This document shows positions 1 to 7,807 of a stretch of DNA of 64,000 nucleotides, piece after piece. Numbering within the stretch: the stretch's first letter is position 1; each line of letters begins with the position of its first letter. Position numbers and translations under genes: made by a program. The stretch lies in contig JAQMWT010000232.1 of assembly GCA_029834535.1 (NCBI GenBank), positions 22,014 through 86,013 of the forward strand. The letters run 5' to 3'. Origin of the DNA: Chrysophaeum taylorii (lineage: Eukaryota; Sar; Pelagophyceae; Pelagomonadales; Pelagomonadaceae). The notes under the pieces are model-generated. The model was not told the origin of the DNA. It did not search any database and worked only from the letters and a program-made list of their open reading frames with translations.

Positions 1-2056
1 GGTTGACGTAGCAGTCGCCCGTTTCGAGCATCGTGAAGTGGCGAGCGTGGTCGGGGCACGACGAAAGCGTGGAATTGACGGCGGACGCGAGGTCATCCAA
101 GGTTGGGGGCTTGTAGTCGGGGATTTCTGAGTCGAGGCGCGGGTCGGCGACGTTTAAGTGACGGTGAACGGTGCCGTCGGCGAGTTTGTTGTAGTAGGCC
201 GAGACCGTACGGTCGGCGGGTTCGCGGAGGCTAACGACCAACTTCATATCTGGGACGAACCGCATCATGTTTTTGATGAGGCGAGGCGGGCCGACGAGGT
301 AGTCTGGCGAGCTCTCGCCGTAGACGACCTCGTCCACGGGCGGCGGAAATGCTTTCAAATATTTGAAGATAAAGCCGCGGACGCCGACGTCGATGGGTGG
401 CTTGCGCGGCGAGCCCCAAAAATTGAGCTCCTTCTTCCACGGTAAACGCACCTTGGGGTGCTGGCCGAGGAAGTAATGGAGCGAGGTCGTGCCGGCTTTC
501 TGGGCCCCGATGATTGTGTAGTGCGGGAGGCAGGCCGTGGTAGTCCAGTGGTAGACGGGGCGGCGGCACGACGGGATATGGGGGGTGCCGCCGCCCGCTT
601 TCATGCGGTGGAAGGAGGCGTAGCGGCTCTGGAGCGTCGCGTAGGCATGTCTCGGAAAGCTCTTGAACCGCCAGTCGCCGTAGACCCGGACCCCGACGCT
701 CCGGAAGCACTGGCCGAGCCAGCCGTCGCCGCCCGGGACCGTCGCCGAGATAATAGGAAAGTTGCCACAATTTTGGGCGAGCCCGAGGGCGGCGCGCGAC
801 ATGGCGATGCCCGGCCCGCCGCCGAGCAGCGGGCCGCCCTCGTTCGAACGACGAGCGAACTTGCGGCCGACGGCGACGGGCTCGTCGGGGTTCGGAAAGG
901 TCGAAATTGCTGCGATCAAGCGGTCTGCCTCGACGTACGTATCGTCGTCGACGAGCACCACCCAGTCGGCAGAAGTCGTGTTGAGGGAACGGACGACCTC
1001 CTTCACCTTGTGGCGGAGCCACGCGTTCCACTCGTCGGCCTTGGTGAGCGAGGCGTCGTAAAAAGTATCTTCGATTACGGGCCGCGGTGCGAGGCGAAGC
1101 CCCACCACGCTGTCATCGTTTACAAAAGCTGTGGCGACGTCGTCGCCCACGAAAAACGAGACGGCGCGACGCGCGCCCCACGTCGCCCGAATGTCTTTCA
1201 CCGCGTCCGCCGCCCGGCTCTCGCGGACCAGCACGGCAAAGGTGACGCGGGGCGGGGGTCGGCGCTCGTATCTCCACCTCGCGCGCAACGTCGGCCACAG
1301 CCGCGCGCTGGCCGCCAGGATCTCGTCGGGGTCGAGGGGGCCCCAAGTGACAGCGTTTTCTTCTTCGTCCCGGGCTCTATCGCTCGATAGGAAGCGGTCG
1401 TTGGACGTGGGCCCGACGCCGTCGTCCCAGAGGGCGTTGGCCACCATGGCTGCCCCGAATTCGGCCGCCCGAAAGTCCGCGTCCTCGGTCGGCATCTGCG
1501 CTTGTAGCAGCGCGTCGAACCTTATCAAGATGCCGTGCTCGTGCGATACGTGCGGCAAAAAGCCCAAGTATGGCGACTGCGAGGCGTTGACGGTGCGTCC
1601 CGAGTACGCCCCGAACTCCTCGGGCCTCGTGTGGAGCAAGTACGCGAGCTTTTGGGGACGAACGAGCGTGTAGGCCTGGACTACGATCACCCATCCGCGC
1701 CATTTTTCCGACTTCCACCGCGAAACGAGTTCTCGCACGTGGGAGAGGACTAGCGTCACGTCAACGACATTCTTGACGCGGACGTGCTGGACGGCGCGGA
1801 ACTGGCACGCGCGGAACCCCTCGAGTCCACTCGTTTCGTTCTTTTCGGTCACGACCACGACGTGCAACCTTGGCACGAACCGCATCCAGGTGCACGCGGC
1901 CGCTCGGACGTGGGCTTTTTGGAATCCCTCGGCCACTACCGCGTAGATCACCCCGGGATGCTCGCGGGGCACGCCCCGCCGCACTCGCACCTTACCCGCG
2001 CTCGCAACCCACCAGAACAACAACAAGCGTGCGACGGCCGCGCCGCAAACTTTCAT
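1..2056 (-). CDS. Partial: membrane-anchored double GT31-like glycosyltransferase fused to a sulfotransferase
   Basis: One frame stays open on the minus strand from an ATG at 2056 through the window edge (about 685 codons, no stop reached). Residues about 6-18 form a hydrophobic signal anchor (RLLLFWW), as in Golgi type II enzymes. A first GT31/Fringe-like module (about 28-230) lacks a recognisable DxD. A second (about 275-450) has the family start (IRATWG), a DDD metal motif at 370-372 (VLVDDDTYV) and a GGGPGIAMSRAAL block. From about 513 a sulfotransferase follows, with the PAPS-binding loop (IIGAQKAGTTS) and the 3'-phosphate motif (LREPADRTVSAYYN). This suggests lumenal sugar transfer plus sulfation in polysaccharide or glycoprotein synthesis. 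The C-terminus is missing. Domains are assigned from motifs; substrate is unknown. Confidence 0.85.
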   Translation of the reverse strand, partial: MKVCGAAVARLLLFWWVASAGKVRVRRGVPREHPGVIYAVVAEGFQKAHVRAAACTWMRFVPRLHVVVVTEKNETSGLEGFRACQFRAVQHVRVKNVVDVTLVLSHVRELVSRWKSEKWRGWVIVVQAYTLVRPQKLAYLLHTRPEEFGAYSGRTVNASQSPYLGFLPHVSHEHGILIRFDALLQAQMPTEDADFRAAEFGAAMVANALWDDGVGPTSNDRFLSSDRARDEEENAVTWGPLDPDEILAASARLWPTLRARWRYERRPPPRVTFAVLVRESRAADAVKDIRATWGARRAVSFFVGDDVATAFVNDDSVVGLRLAPRPVIEDTFYDASLTKADEWNAWLRHKVKEVVRSLNTTSADWVVLVDDDTYVEADRLIAAISTFPNPDEPVAVGRKFARRSNEGGPLLGGGPGIAMSRAALGLAQNCGNFPIISATVPGGDGWLGQCFRSVGVRVYGDWRFKSFPRHAYATLQSRYASFHRMKAGGGTPHIPSCRRPVYHWTTTACLPHYTIIGAQKAGTTSLHYFLGQHPKVRLPWKKELNFWGSPRKPPIDVGVRGFIFKYLKAFPPPVDEVVYGESSPDYLVGPPRLIKNMMRFVPDMKLVVSLREPADRTVSAYYNKLADGTVHRHLNVADPRLDSEIPDYKPPTLDDLASAVNSTLSSCPDHARHFTMLETGDCYVN

Positions 2057-3990
2057 TTTTAACGGTTCTGCAACTTCTTCGATCCTAATGTACCCCCAAT
2101 AGTAAAAAGGGCAAGCTCGGCCGAACACGCAATTATTAATGCCTTCGACGAGCTCAAGCGGCGGACGGCCGTGGCTCAAACACCACGCTAAAATAAGCTT
2201 CTTTATATTCAAGCATTTTCAGCCGTCGTCGTCCTGGATAGCGCTTTATTGCGTCGTGAGATGGTGCCCAGATCCGACTTTCCTGGCTATGCATGACGCC
2301 GCACATGCCCTTGATGCCCGCGTGTGGCGGCTACGTGGCACGGCAAATTCTTCGGTTTTGTCGTGAGGCGCTCCCTTGCAGTACTACGCCCGCGATATCA
2401 AAGCTAGCGGCGAGGAGCTCCGCCTGGACGAGTGCTTGGCGTTCTGTCCTCCGGTGGGGTGGGCGCGGGTCTCCTTAAATACCCCGACCATCAACACCAG
2501 CTGCGGGACTCGCACCCTTGCCATCTTTCCGCGCGTGGACTACCTCGAACGGCATTGCTACCGAGCTAATGCCTCAAGACGACGACGACGACGACGTCGT
2601 TCTTCTCAACTTTTGGTCGTCGCGGCACTCGGAGCCGAGCCGCTTCAGTTTTTTGGCGACATAGTCATCCAACGTCGCCGCCGTCTCCCGGCAAGAAATT
2701 GGGGTGGCGGTGTGCGCTCCTGCGCCGACCTCGGCTTCTTTGTTGGCAGGGCGTCAACCTCTGCAACCCATCGGGCGCCGTCGACGTCCTTGGATACCTA
2801 CCTACCTACCTACCTGGGTGCCGAATCCTTTCGAGTTGCGCTGTCGGCACCAGCTTCTCGTCTCCGGGTGTCGCCTGGCACTCGAGAATGCATGGAATGG
2901 GCTTCGCGCTGATCTTCGCATGATGCTGGGTTCCCCCCCGCCGCCAACGTCCAACTTGTTCTCTCGACCTCGAGTTTGTCTCCTCCGTGGGTGTCCTCGT
3001 AGACCCCTAAGCTTCGACTGACTTCGTGGCGCGAAGCGTCTCCGGCCACTGCGCACCGGCGACTGTTGGCCACCCTTCCGATCAACGATGCTCGTCGGGG
3101 CGTCCGAAGCCGCTTCGCCCGTAAAAATTTTCGATGCCCAACTGCCTAGATATTTATTATGCGCCCAATACGTTGGTTATCCTTGTCCGGCTTTTGCACG
3201 GGTGGGCACCGACTCTATTCTCGCGGGAAGTTCCTCTTCACCCTCGTCGAATACCTTTTACCCATGATCCTCACTTTGGCATATCCGTCCTATCAGAGGT
3301 AGGTAATCCGCATCTTTGCTGACGTTGTTTGTCGCCCTGTTACCGTCCGCTCGCGGCGCCTCTACGGCCGGTATCAAGGCAGCAACGCGACGTCGTGCCC
3401 GATATCTTCGTCGCGCAGCAAGGCTACGACGTCAAGACGCTCCGCTGGGGCATCCCAGCGTGGCTGTCTCAACCTCCCCCCGTCGTCGTCGATGCGCGTC
3501 GCCTACGTTCCAGCGCGCTCGCATCATCGCCCAGCCTCCCATCGTCCGGGAGATCTCCCGGGCCCCGTCGAGCAGCGGCAGCTAAGCGCGTCTTGGCGGC
3601 GCCTTCGGTGAGTGACGCCGTATGCCACGCCAGAATCTGCGCCGCGCGGACGTCGGTTTGGATGCGCGCGAGTTCGCCGCATTTAGTACCCAAGTTTCCA
3701 GTAGGAAGGAATAGCCCCGGCAGCCACGCTGCGGCCGCAGCCACCGACCGCTGCGAATTCGGGCAGAACCAAGGCAGGCCGCCCGCTCCCTGCAGCACGG
3801 CACACTCTGTCGCAGATAGGTACTACGCCCGGCGGCGAGGCGGGGATTTGAAGAGAGGGCCTCGCGCATCATCTCACTCGGGGAGGTTATTAGTTGTTCG
3901 GCTTTCTCTTGTACAGACAGCCACCCACCGAAGGAGCCTCCGATAGATAAGACCCTTATATAACCCCCCACTAGCTTCCCAAAAAAACCC
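2057..3990. other. No supported gene; gene-poor interval
   Basis: Between the starts/ends of two minus-strand genes I see only short, unconvincing open frames in several phases. There is a CCTA microsatellite near 2796-2815. One plus-strand stretch near 3200-3300 encodes a short hydrophobic piece (LFTLVEYLLPMILTLAYP) that could be a remnant of a membrane protein, but no longer open frame or domain supports it. Confidence 0.4.
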
Positions 3991-5025
3991 CTAAATGTCG
4001 AGGTCGAGTCCGAGGTGCTCTTCGAGGCCGAGGGCAATGTTGAGATTTTGGACCGCGGCCGCCGAGGCCCCCTTGCCGAGGTTGTCGAGGCGCGCCGAGA
4101 GGACGGCCGTTTTGTGGTGGTCGTTTTTGAAAACGAAGAGCTCGAGGTTGTTCGAACCGTTGAGCCTCGTTGGCTCGAGGAAAGTGCCGCGCTCGAGGAA
4201 GGGTTCGACGTTGTCGGGATCCACGACAGTCACAAAGGGTTCGTCGCGGTAGTGGGCGTCGAGAGCCGCGTAGAGGCGATCACCCCCGTCCACGTGAAGC
4301 ATGATGGAGACGACCATACCCGCGTAGTAGTGACCGACCGACGGAAGGAAGAGAGGCGGCGTCTCTAGTCGCGAGTGCTTTGCCATCTCGGGGAGGTGTT
4401 TGTGCGACAGGCCGAGGCCGTAGGCGCCCCAGGGTTCGGCGCCTGGGGATTCGTGGATCTCGACGAGGGCCTTGCCGCCGCCCGAGTACCCCGAGACTGC
4501 CGAGCAGGCCAACCTCGCGTCGCGTCGCAAGAGCCCCGCGTCTACGAGGGGTCTCGCGAGCGCAATAAACCCCGTCGCGTAGCAGCCCGGGTTGGCGATT
4601 CGCGACGATTCGCGGATGCGGTCGCGCTGCCCTCGACACATTTCTGGAAATCCGTAGACCCAATCGTCGTCGCACCGGCGAGCCGTCGACGCGTCGACGA
4701 TCTTGACCGGGTTCCCCGGCGCCACAAGGCCCACGGCCTCGCGCGCGGCCTCGTCGGGCAGGCACAACACCACGGCGTCCACCGAGTTGATCACCTCGGC
4801 GCGCTTTTTCGGGTCCTTTCGGTCAGACCCAAGCAGCGACACCACCTCCACCTCGTCGTGCCTGGCGAGCCGCTCGCGCACCTGGAGACCCGTCGTCCCG
4901 GCCTCGCCGTCGATGAACACGCGCTTCGCCTGCAGTCTGCTGCTGCTGCTGCTGCTGCTGCTGCGTCCCCGAGTCGTCGTCCACGCATCCGCTGCTGCTG
5001 CGATCACTACCACCACCAACAACAT
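3991..5025 (-). CDS. argC: N-acetyl-gamma-glutamyl-phosphate reductase, plastid-targeted form
   Basis: Third step of arginine (ornithine) synthesis: NADPH-dependent reduction of N-acetylglutamyl phosphate to the semialdehyde. The 344-residue protein has the nucleotide-binding start (FIDGEAGTTG), the catalytic-cysteine motif (NPGCYATG), a GYSGGGK block and the HKHLPEM histidine motif, matching the shorter ArgC type of about 310 residues. I chose the ATG at 5025 because it gives a signal peptide (MLLVVVVIAAAADAW) followed by a Ser/Arg-rich stretch, a plausible bipartite plastid leader. An AGC repeat encodes a poly-Ser run in this leader. A longer frame reaches 5241 but would overlap the divergent neighbour's coding region. 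The start is 40 bp from that of the divergent gene. Confidence 0.9.
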   Translation of the reverse strand: MLLVVVVIAAAADAWTTTRGRSSSSSSSSRLQAKRVFIDGEAGTTGLQVRERLARHDEVEVVSLLGSDRKDPKKRAEVINSVDAVVLCLPDEAAREAVGLVAPGNPVKIVDASTARRCDDDWVYGFPEMCRGQRDRIRESSRIANPGCYATGFIALARPLVDAGLLRRDARLACSAVSGYSGGGKALVEIHESPGAEPWGAYGLGLSHKHLPEMAKHSRLETPPLFLPSVGHYYAGMVVSIMLHVDGGDRLYAALDAHYRDEPFVTVVDPDNVEPFLERGTFLEPTRLNGSNNLELFVFKNDHHKTAVLSARLDNLGKGASAAAVQNLNIALGLEEHLGLDLDI

Positions 5026-5065
5026 CTTCCAGCAAGCACCAGCAGGGTAATTAAGAACTAGTAAG
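5026..5065. promoter_or_regulatory. 40-bp divergent intergenic region (presumed bidirectional promoter)
   Basis: The ATGs of the argC homologue (minus) and the aminotransferase-TtcA fusion (plus) are separated by only 40 bp, so both core promoters must lie here or within the coding ends. No TATA box is evident. The promoter role is inferred from position only. Confidence 0.4.
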
Positions 5066-7807
5066 ATGGAGGAGGAGGAGATGGTGCTGCTGTCTGAGCA
5101 GATTGGGCGGCTCGGAGCGCTGTCGACGCCCTTCGGTGCGAGGCCTCTGGTGTACTGCGACTGGACCGCCTCGGGGCGAGGCCTCAGGAGCGTCGAGGCG
5201 GTGGTGGCGTCGGTGCTGCCGACGTACGGCAACACGCACACCTCGAACTCGGCCTGCGGGGTCCAGTCGAGCAGCTTCGTCGCCGAGGCGCGGAAGGCCG
5301 TGGGCGAGTTCGTGGGCGCGCGGACGACCGGAAAGGCTGCGGTCGACGTCGTGCTTTTCGCCGCGAATGCGACGGCCGCGTGTTGCCAGCTCGTCTCGAC
5401 GCTCGGAATCGGCGAGGGGTGGTTGGTCGTGTCGTCGCCCTACGAACACCACTCGAATCTGCTTCCGTGGCGCGAGGCGGGGGCTGATGTGGTGGTGATC
5501 GACGAAGCCCCCGGCGGGGGGGTGGACCTCTCGCACCTCGAGCGGGTTCTCTCTCGAAGGTCGAGCGGCAGAAGTACGGTCGGCGCGTTTTGCGCCGCGT
5601 CGAACTGCACGGGTCGACGCGTCGACGTCGAGGCCGTCACGAGGGTGTTGCGGTCGTTCGGGGCGTTGAGCTGCTGGGACTTCGCGACCCTCGCCCCGCA
5701 CCATCCCCCCGTAATGAACGGGGTCGAGCCCCTGGACGCCGTCTTCTTCAGCTGCCACAAGTTTCTGGGCGGTCCCGGGGCCGCGGGCGTCCTCGTTGTT
5801 AAGAAGGCTCTCCTCGATCCAGCGCGGCCGCCCGCGCGGCCCGGCGGAGGGACGGTGTTTTTCGCCACGAAAACTACCCACCGCTTTCTCTCGAATCGCG
5901 TCGAAAGGGAGCAGGGCGGAACGCCGGACGTGTTGGGGATCGCGCGCGCGGGCGTCGTCGCGCGCCTCGCTCTTACGAAACGATTCGAATCCCGACGCCT
6001 CGCGTTCGATATGATGATGCCGGCGACCGTCCTTCTGGGGACGGGAGATCTGCCGATCTACCCGTTGATGGTGCGGTGCGGGCCGCGGTTCCTCCACTTC
6101 AACTTCGCGTGCCAGCTCCTGAACGACTTGTTCGGAATTCAGGCTCGCGGCGGATGCCAGTGCGCGGGGCCGTACGCCCACCGTCTCCTCGGTATCGACG
6201 ACGACGCCTCGTCCCTGATCGAGCACGCGCTCCTCGAGCACAAGGGCTCGGAAGTGCTGAGGCCGGGCTTCGTCCGGATTTCGATGGCCTCGGTCGCCCA
6301 CAACTCCTCGGCCGAAGCCCGGTACGTCGAGAGGGCTTGGGCTTTGGTCTCCGCCTTTGGCTGGCGTCTCCTGCCGTCGTATCGCCTCGACGCCCGCAGC
6401 GGGGAGTGGCGCCACAGCTCGCGCGTCTCCAAGCCCCTGGGCGACGACCGCCGCTGGCTCGCCGAGCCCCGCGGTTTGGCGGATCGCGCGGCTCCGTCGT
6501 TCGACGCTCTCCTGGCCGAGGCCGAGCGCCTCTTGACTTCGGACGACGCGCCGACCGTCAACGACCTCGTCGCGTCCCCGCTCGACGACGCCCTCGAGCC
6601 GCTCCGGTGGTTTGTCACGCCGGCCGAGGCCTCGAGGCGCATGAAGACGACGAGGACTAAGGAGTGGCCGGCGGAAGAACCGCTCGAGGGTCCGATCCGA
6701 TTGTCCGATCCTCGCCCCTGGACGATATCCGACGAAGCTCGATCTAGGCTTCGAAGCGGCTCTTCACCCGAAGAAGAAGCGCGACGAGCCAAAAAACCTC
6801 TTCGCGGCCGCAGAGGCGTCGCGACGACGACGACGACGGCGACGACAAAAAAAATAGCGGGAGATGAAGAAGAACCGTTGGTGGTGGTGGAAAAAAAAGA
6901 CCCTGCGACCCGGCCGCCCAAGCGACTCCTCAAGGCCGTCGGCGAAGCGATCCGGGACTGGGACCTCATCGCCGACGGCGATCGCGTGCTCCTAGGCCTC
7001 TCGGGCGGCAAGGACTCGCTCAGCCTCCTCCACGTGCTCCTCCACCTCCAAAGGGTCGCCCCCGTGCGATTCGAGCTCGCGTGCGCGACCGTCGACCCCT
7101 TGACCTCGTCCTTCGACCCCTCGCCCCTCATCCCCTACGTCGAGGGCCTCGGGGTGCGGTACTTCTACCTTCGAGACCCCATCGTCGACGCGGCCGCCGA
7201 CGTCGAGCCCGCCTCCCTCTGCGCCTACTGCGCGCGCATGAAGCGCGGCGCTTTGTACTCTTGCGCGAACCGCGAGAGCTTCAACAAGCTCGCCCTCGCC
7301 CACCACCTCGACGACCTCGCCGAGTCCTTCGTTATGACCGCCCTCCACAACGGCGGCCTCCGGGCGATGCGCGCCAAGTACGAGGCCGACCGCGGCGTCA
7401 CCGTCATCCGTCCCCTCGTCTACGCGCGCGAACACATGACCGCCGCGTTTGCCAAAGCCGCGCGCCTCCCAGTCGTCAACGAAAACTGTCCCGCCTGCTT
7501 CGAAGAGCCCAAAGAGCGCGCCCGGGTTAAAAAACTCCTCGCCAAGGAAGAGGCCCTCTTCCCCAACATCTACAGCTCTCTCCGTGCCTGCCTCGAACCC
7601 CTCATGGACGACGGCGTCGCCGCCGCCATCAAACGTTTTTCCGACGCAAAAAAACGGACTCCCCGCGCGAGGGAGGTCCACACAGACCTCCTCTCCTCCT
7701 TCTCCGACGACCAGCTCCGCGCCGAGCTGGCAGAACGCCGCCGCGCTTCCTCGAAAGACCCTTCTTCTTCTTCTTCTTCTTTTGTGAGGTGTTCTTCGAA
7801 TACTTAG
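5066..7807 (+). CDS. Fusion of class V aminotransferase (cysteine-desulfurase-like) and TtcA-type tRNA 2-thiolation ATPase
   Basis: This is a 913-residue single open frame. Residues about 25-430 are a PLP-dependent class V fold of the cysteine desulfurase group: paired His at 128-129, PLP lysine K232 in SCHKFLGGPG, and a Cys-bearing loop (GGCQCAG, C364/C366) where desulfurases carry their catalytic Cys. After a low-complexity linker (about 560-615), residues 620-860 match TtcA: PP-loop SGGKDS at 646-651, a CAYC pair at 719-722, the HHLDD block and a CPAC pair at 808-811, expected to hold a 4Fe-4S cluster. The likely role is mobilising Cys sulfur and delivering it directly to an adenylated tRNA base. 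The pairing is logical, but the chemistry is inferred from motifs. It lies head-to-head with the argC homologue. Confidence 0.85.
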   Translation: MEEEEMVLLSEQIGRLGALSTPFGARPLVYCDWTASGRGLRSVEAVVASVLPTYGNTHTSNSACGVQSSSFVAEARKAVGEFVGARTTGKAAVDVVLFAANATAACCQLVSTLGIGEGWLVVSSPYEHHSNLLPWREAGADVVVIDEAPGGGVDLSHLERVLSRRSSGRSTVGAFCAASNCTGRRVDVEAVTRVLRSFGALSCWDFATLAPHHPPVMNGVEPLDAVFFSCHKFLGGPGAAGVLVVKKALLDPARPPARPGGGTVFFATKTTHRFLSNRVEREQGGTPDVLGIARAGVVARLALTKRFESRRLAFDMMMPATVLLGTGDLPIYPLMVRCGPRFLHFNFACQLLNDLFGIQARGGCQCAGPYAHRLLGIDDDASSLIEHALLEHKGSEVLRPGFVRISMASVAHNSSAEARYVERAWALVSAFGWRLLPSYRLDARSGEWRHSSRVSKPLGDDRRWLAEPRGLADRAAPSFDALLAEAERLLTSDDAPTVNDLVASPLDDALEPLRWFVTPAEASRRMKTTRTKEWPAEEPLEGPIRLSDPRPWTISDEARSRLRSGSSPEEEARRAKKPLRGRRGVATTTTTATTKKIAGDEEEPLVVVEKKDPATRPPKRLLKAVGEAIRDWDLIADGDRVLLGLSGGKDSLSLLHVLLHLQRVAPVRFELACATVDPLTSSFDPSPLIPYVEGLGVRYFYLRDPIVDAAADVEPASLCAYCARMKRGALYSCANRESFNKLALAHHLDDLAESFVMTALHNGGLRAMRAKYEADRGVTVIRPLVYAREHMTAAFAKAARLPVVNENCPACFEEPKERARVKKLLAKEEALFPNIYSSLRACLEPLMDDGVAAAIKRFSDAKKRTPRAREVHTDLLSSFSDDQLRAELAERRRASSKDPSSSSSSFVRCSSNT

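Follow-up and report, generated by a model that had tools for sequence, protein, structure and literature searches.

A candidate single-chain fusion of a GT31-like glycosyltransferase pair and a PAPS-type sulfotransferase in the alga Chrysophaeum taylorii

Introduction

Core 1 synthase (C1GALT1), a GT31 enzyme, has a single GT domain and lacks a sulfotransferase, and the heparan sulfate 3-O-sulfotransferases (3-OSTs) and the sulfotransferase of PDB entry 3rnl are stand-alone enzymes. GT31 enzymes are described as mostly inverting beta-1,3 transferases (PMC12748766). In B3GLCT, a beta-1,3-glucosyltransferase acting on O-fucose of TSR, an N-terminal GT-like domain is followed in the same chain by a C-terminal GT31 domain with DDD, GGG, xED, and C-His motifs; as described in PMC8233153, the C-terminal domain alone is active, neither domain is expressible by itself, and the DxD of the N-terminal domain is not conserved in fly. 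In the chondroitin-polymerizing CHSY-CHPF pairs, GT31 and GT7 domains are carried by two chains, and CHPF is described as missing the DxD and having a stabilizing role (PMC12748766).

NDST1 (882 residues in PDB entry 8cd0) has three domains: a non-catalytic N-terminal domain described as Rossmann-like, a deacetylase, and a C-terminal sulfotransferase in which K614-T618 binds PAP (PMC10864358). According to the same source, its two catalytic domains lie back to back and face opposite directions, which limits direct hand-over.

Here we describe a gene of the pelagophyte Chrysophaeum taylorii whose predicted product joins a GT31 domain to a sulfotransferase. The gene overlaps the edge of a 64,000-nucleotide stretch (the window), C232:22014-86013 (contig JAQMWT010000232.1), of the 70.8 Mb assembly. 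An initial annotation of the window, made from its letters alone, had proposed a type II membrane protein in which two GT31-like domains and a sulfotransferase form a single-chain machine.

Results

The fusion was said to lie in one open minus-strand frame that runs off the window edge, and the extended sequence bears this out. From the first in-frame ATG (position 2056, minus strand), 685 codons follow without a stop up to the window edge, and a stop is found only beyond base 1. Extending into the host contig, as the initial annotation had suggested, reached the stop at C232:21535; the stop codon ends 479 bases past window base 1. The gene is thus C232:21535-24069 on the minus strand and encodes 844 amino acids with no intron required; its coding frame covers window positions 1..2056 (minus strand), with the remainder at C232:21535-22013. 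In 1000 dinucleotide shuffles of the gene's 2535 bases, the longest open frame had at most 497 codons (mean, 237). GC content is 0.81 at third and 0.47 at second codon positions, and a high third-position relative to second-position GC is typical of coding sequence in GC-rich genomes. The gene looks like part of the algal nuclear genome. The RuBisCO large subunit encoded in the assembly has its closest PDB counterparts in 7yk5, 5mz2, 5n9z, 5oya, and 6ftl, a group that includes diatom enzymes, followed by the red algal 8bdb and 1bwv, which points to an ochrophyte as the probable host. Upstream of it, the next minus-strand frame (window 3991-5241) resembles ArgC (N-acetyl-gamma-glutamyl-phosphate reductase), as judged by eye.

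We compared the gene with two related genes in the assembly. P0003 (C524:435991-438441) has the same domain order in one frame and is 49-50% identical over residues 34-822; the Pfam models Fringe and Sulfotransfer_1/3 score above their cut-offs in it as well. Identity to P0003 is below that of the domains in the two linkers (39% at residues 245-275 and 31% at residues 490-515) and is 14% in the N-terminal 34 residues. P0004 (C138:59005-60438) is 30% identical to residues 338-820, spanning the GT-sulfotransferase junction. Its frame lacks the first domain and has a hydrophobic N-terminus of its own; in Pfam, its sulfotransferase scores are under the cut-offs and a Fringe match is absent.

Codons of the fusion gene and P0003 were compared with a Nei-Gojobori style script that has no significance test. 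Overall dN was 0.47 and dS was 1.24. By domain, dN and dS were 0.47 and 1.13 for the N-terminal domain, 0.45 and 1.16 for GT31, and 0.44 and 1.15 for the sulfotransferase; such near-equal values are expected if all three domains are under purifying selection. dS was saturated in residues 1-34, the first linker, and residues 801-840, as well as in block 1-40, and in block 761-800 dN (0.74) exceeded dS (0.55). Because P0003 retains the whole order and P0004 retains the GT31-sulfotransferase junction, chance or assembly error is, on these alignments, an unlikely origin of the fusion. A single-chain protein is the best inference, since P0003 shares the domain order and dN stays below dS in each of the three domains. 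The "single-chain machine" of the initial annotation therefore holds as to the one chain, at the strength of that best inference.

The N-terminus of the predicted protein (residues 1-21; window 1994..2056, minus strand) is hydrophobic by hydropathy analysis, with a mean Kyte-Doolittle value of 1.6 over residues 3-21; the stretch is short and ends in ASAG. The N-termini of the paralogues are likewise hydrophobic, and their sequence is not conserved. This segment may equally be a signal peptide that is cleaved off or a short signal anchor. Of the proposed signal anchor and type II topology, the hydrophobic N-terminus was borne out; type II anchoring was not, since the stretch is short and its ASAG end also fits a cleavable signal peptide.

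The second domain (residues 266-505; window 542..1261, minus strand) is a GT31 (Fringe-like) domain. Pfam Fringe matched residues 360-458 (E = 6.3e-7; 29.4 bits; cut-off, 21). In a PDB sequence search, the middle part of the protein matched 12em, a beta-1,3-glucosyltransferase that we take to be B3GLCT from its deposited name and length, and C1GALT1 (7q4i), and a profile of the three genes matched the same two enzymes (E = 4e-15 for 12em and 2.6e-8 for C1GALT1). All four GT-A motifs (DxD, G-loop, xED, and C-His) are present. By family alignment, the donor/metal motif is DDD at residues 370-372 (window 941..949) and the G-loop is GGG at residues 412-414 (window 815..823), both on the minus strand. 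GGD at residues 442-444 (window 725..733, minus strand) corresponds to the xED motif, with D444 the likely catalytic base (motif names as in PMC8233153). H483 (window 608..610, minus strand), invariant in all three genes, is the likely C-terminal His of GT-A enzymes. DDD (DED in P0004), GGGPG, GGD, and FHR are likewise preserved in the three genes. The initial annotation had recognized this domain by IRATWG and DDD, and both are in the translation, with Fringe above its cut-off.

The sulfotransferase domain extends from residue 509 to residue 685 within the window (2..532, minus strand) and on to about residue 816 outside it. Pfam Sulfotransfer_1 matched residues 512-735 (E = 1.4e-10; 41.5 bits; cut-off, 22), and Sulfotransfer_3 was also above its cut-off (E = 4.1e-10), so that profiles of both domain types, Fringe and Sulfotransfer_1/3, fall in one frame. 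In the PDB sequence search, the C-terminal part matched NDST1, 3-OSTs, and 3rnl, and the three-gene profile matched these structures with E values down to 9.6e-24; we aligned it to NDST1 and 3-OST-3. From the family and PDB alignments, the 5'-phosphosulfate-binding (PSB) loop is GAQKAGTTSL at residues 517-526 (window 479..508, minus strand; K520), and the 3'-phosphate-binding (PB) segment is LREPADRTVSAY at residues 610-621 (window 194..229, minus strand; R611 and S619). K520, E543, R611, and S619, which presumably correspond to catalytic and cofactor residues in enzymes of the NDST/3-OST type, are invariant in all three genes. With both profiles above cut-off and both binding motifs intact, the assignment as a PAPS-type sulfotransferase is well founded. 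Where the PDB search matched NDST1, the strongest stretches fell in the sulfotransferase part, Pfam gave no deacetylase match in the protein, and an NCBIfam search gave no match. APS kinase, required for PAPS, is encoded at two loci in the assembly.

The first domain (residues 34-250; window 1307..1957, minus strand) was assigned by profile comparison (hhalign) with the catalytic GT domain and by shuffled controls. It is 47% identical to that of P0003 (residues 35-250). By domain alignment, the place of the DxD is taken by QAY (residues 127-129; window 1670..1678, minus strand) here and by HAH in P0003, and DxD is thus absent from both genes that have the domain, as the initial annotation had noted for this one. 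The G-loop place reads EHG, and AAE lies near the expected xED place, as judged by eye. The comparison with the second domain gave a score of 35.8 over 99 aligned columns, with an HHalign probability of 51%, and paired VIVVQAYTLVRPQKL with VVLVDDDTYVEADRL. The best of 200 column shuffles scored 22.8 and the reversed profile scored 17.0.

As further controls, we compared the first domain with 42 other open frames of the genome: 37 sulfotransferase-bearing frames and 5 GT31 frames, with one gene present twice (L047 and L065). This set omits L005, L008, L018, L036, L037, the three family genes, and second loci of places already represented. The best score was 25.4 (L007, a sulfotransferase). The five GT31 frames scored 23.7 (L027), 17.5 (L033), 17.4 (L024), 16.5 (L035), and 14.3 (L034), the level of non-GT frames, and an alignment of the five scored 25.7 with a probability of 3%. 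In Pfam, the domain had no GT31 match of its own; the GT2 model reached 22.9 bits on residues 62-143, under its 27-bit cut-off. A search of the alga's own genome for relatives, at E values up to 10, returned the domain itself and the paralogue only. An AlphaFold2 model of the window part, run on the single sequence without an alignment, had a mean pLDDT of 31.8, too low to inform on the fold. Since the probability is 51% and the other GT31 comparisons were no better than those with non-GT frames, the first domain would be at most a much diverged GT31 copy, with the neighboring second domain as the closest relative among those found. The label "GT31-like" accordingly stands on the profile comparison with the second domain and has no Pfam match behind it. 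Loss of the donor site in both genes suggests an old, retained, non-catalytic domain.

We also surveyed the other sulfotransferases of the genome. PF00685 matched at 33 places and PF13469 at 28, counts that overlap and are not reduced to genes. Thirty-seven sulfotransferase-bearing frames were collected and 13 of them scanned with Pfam, 4 of which have extra domains in the same frame. In L065 (C667, about 218-221 kb), a single open frame (409-3312, plus strand; 968 of its 1236 amino acids covered) encodes two sulfotransferase stretches and then a GT2 domain, which makes it a possible second GT-sulfotransferase fusion on domain content. L014 (C671; 604-2382, plus strand) joins an aspartyl/asparaginyl hydroxylase domain to a sulfotransferase domain in one frame. 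L052 (C37; 1255-3504, minus strand) combines a sulfatase domain with a sulfotransferase domain in an open frame, either sulfate removal and addition side by side or two genes in a shared frame. The frame of L041 contains TPR repeats. Unlike the fusion gene, these four lack a checked paralogue and may be adjacent genes in a shared GC-rich frame. In L054 (C447; 382-2202, plus strand), among the other sulfotransferase frames, the N-terminal part resembles the GT31 DxD region (hhalign score of 33.1 over 40 columns against the catalytic GT profile), and a Pfam GT match is absent. L017 (C268) and L018 (C6) have sulfotransferase matches of equal score and frame length on contigs almost equal in length (180,744 and 180,079) and are perhaps uncollapsed haplotypes.

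Searches for relatives outside the alga covered viral, phage, and prokaryote collections. Scanning viral contigs with a few short peptide patterns from the fusion protein gave two candidate stretches, neither a relative; a short-pattern scan with the three-gene alignment gave 250 candidates, of which 3 were relatives, each aligned with residues 267-470 at 24%. One of these loci, on a viral metagenome contig (L028; 4278-5879, plus strand), has GT2-like and GT31-like (DDDTYVE) parts in one 533-amino-acid frame, in which no sulfotransferase was seen by eye. tblastn against 50,697 phage records gave no match at an E value of 1e-3. A short-pattern scan of prokaryote genomes yielded 238 candidate stretches with a single relative among them, a Paracoccus locus that aligns with residues 511-743 at 22%. 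These scans used short patterns and collections nearly or wholly without algae, so they say nothing about rarity in algae. We found no natural GT31-sulfotransferase chain among the papers listed on GT-sulfotransferase fusions and algal sulfotransferases, a literature of which few subscription journals were covered. Both halves are of known families, and the combination is new as far as seen. Annotated relatives may well exist elsewhere, since this result covers the papers listed and the viral, phage, and prokaryote collections.

Discussion

Among known systems, B3GLCT comes nearest to the GT pair, ahead of the two-chain chondroitin polymerases. B3GLCT (12em) ranks first among the PDB matches to the GT part, its GT31 domain has the four motifs found here, and its DxD-less N-terminal domain in fly recalls the first domain of the fusion protein (PMC8233153). 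The tandem order of an N-terminal GT-like and a C-terminal GT domain is common to both, here with the N-terminal domain placed by profile similarity; in the PDB search with residues 1-504, the match to 12em was in the second domain only. Unlike the fusion protein, B3GLCT has no sulfotransferase, and its Cys-rich linker and REEL retention signal have no counterpart here: there is no Cys among residues 85-429, and the C-terminus is ...RRHFGR. The initial annotation had likened the first domain to the non-catalytic partner of chondroitin-polymerizing pairs. CHPF is a fair analogy, CHSY-CHPF also combining a GT31 domain with a DxD-less stabilizing partner as described in PMC12748766; B3GLCT, with its one chain, is closer, whereas CHSY-CHPF has two chains, GT31 and GT7 domains, and no sulfotransferase. 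NDST1 resembles the fusion protein in its similar length and in its three domains: a non-catalytic one at the N-terminus, then one that modifies glycans, and at the C-terminus a sulfotransferase of this type (PMC10864358). It differs in the middle domain, a deacetylase instead of a glycosyltransferase, and in an N-terminal domain not described there as GT31-like. The 3-OSTs and 3rnl share the sulfotransferase domain with its PSB loop and 3'-PB segment, and C1GALT1 matches the catalytic GT domain.

We propose that the protein is probably a secretory-pathway enzyme in which a B3GLCT-like GT31 pair, the first domain non-catalytic and the second catalytic, is joined to a carbohydrate sulfotransferase that depends on PAPS and is of the NDST/3-OST type. 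The hydrophobic N-terminus would take it into the secretory pathway and the ER/Golgi lumen. The second domain would use a UDP donor to attach a sugar in beta-1,3 linkage, with DDD binding metal and donor and D444 as the putative base. The first domain may fold with and stabilize the catalytic domain, or may hold the acceptor. The sulfotransferase would pass sulfate from PAPS onto that glycan or a neighboring one, at either a hydroxyl or an amine, with K520 and S619 at the cofactor and E543 as the proposed base. Sugar transfer would come before sulfation of the product or of a nearby glycan. Coupling of the two steps is possible and is not guaranteed by fusion alone, because the catalytic domains of NDST1 lie back to back.

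A bolder version is tentative at best: a single-chain sulfo-glycan synthase in which the inactive GT31 domain would hold the growing chain, the active one would add a sugar, and the sulfotransferase would mark that sugar before release, so that the pattern is set during polymerization; the alga would then use GT-sulfotransferase fusions repeatedly, the frame with two sulfotransferase stretches and a GT2 domain being another. Alternatively, only one activity may survive: the GT31 pair would then bind glycans and offer them as acceptors to a sulfotransferase that is still active, or the two roles would be swapped. One GT31-like domain of the chain is already without DxD and NDST1 is described as having a non-catalytic domain next to its sulfotransferase (PMC10864358), but the GT-A and sulfotransferase motifs are retained in all three genes at 30-50% overall identity, and we regard the loss of either activity as unlikely.

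We also consider it unlikely that the two domains, each active, serve unrelated acceptors and are fused only for co-localization or co-expression. Both halves come from glycan-modifying families and the GT31-sulfotransferase junction is common to three genes, even though sulfotransferases of this genome share frames with an Asp/Asn hydroxylase, a sulfatase, and TPR repeats, and the opposite orientation of the NDST1 catalytic domains is described as limiting hand-over (PMC10864358). It is very improbable that the assembly, or read-through of a spacer rich in GC, made one frame of two adjacent genes. High GC does favor long spurious frames (up to 497 codons in the shuffles), and conservation within the protein is lowest in the linkers (31-39%), leaving the ends aside; against this, a second contig has the same order in an uninterrupted frame that aligns over both junctions, and the GT31-sulfotransferase junction recurs in the third gene. 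We rejected read-through and assembly artefact on the ground that the paralogues share the architecture.

For the fucose-containing polysaccharides of brown algae, polymerization by glycosyltransferases is described as likely to come first and sulfation by sulfotransferases after (PMC11468063). Sulfated polysaccharides are described in this way, as polymerized first and sulfated later by separate enzymes, and a chain with two activities, if the proposed enzyme is real, would couple both steps. The fusion protein would then offer a single expressible means of producing sulfated glycans and would allow a one-protein test of whether a sulfation pattern is set at sugar addition.
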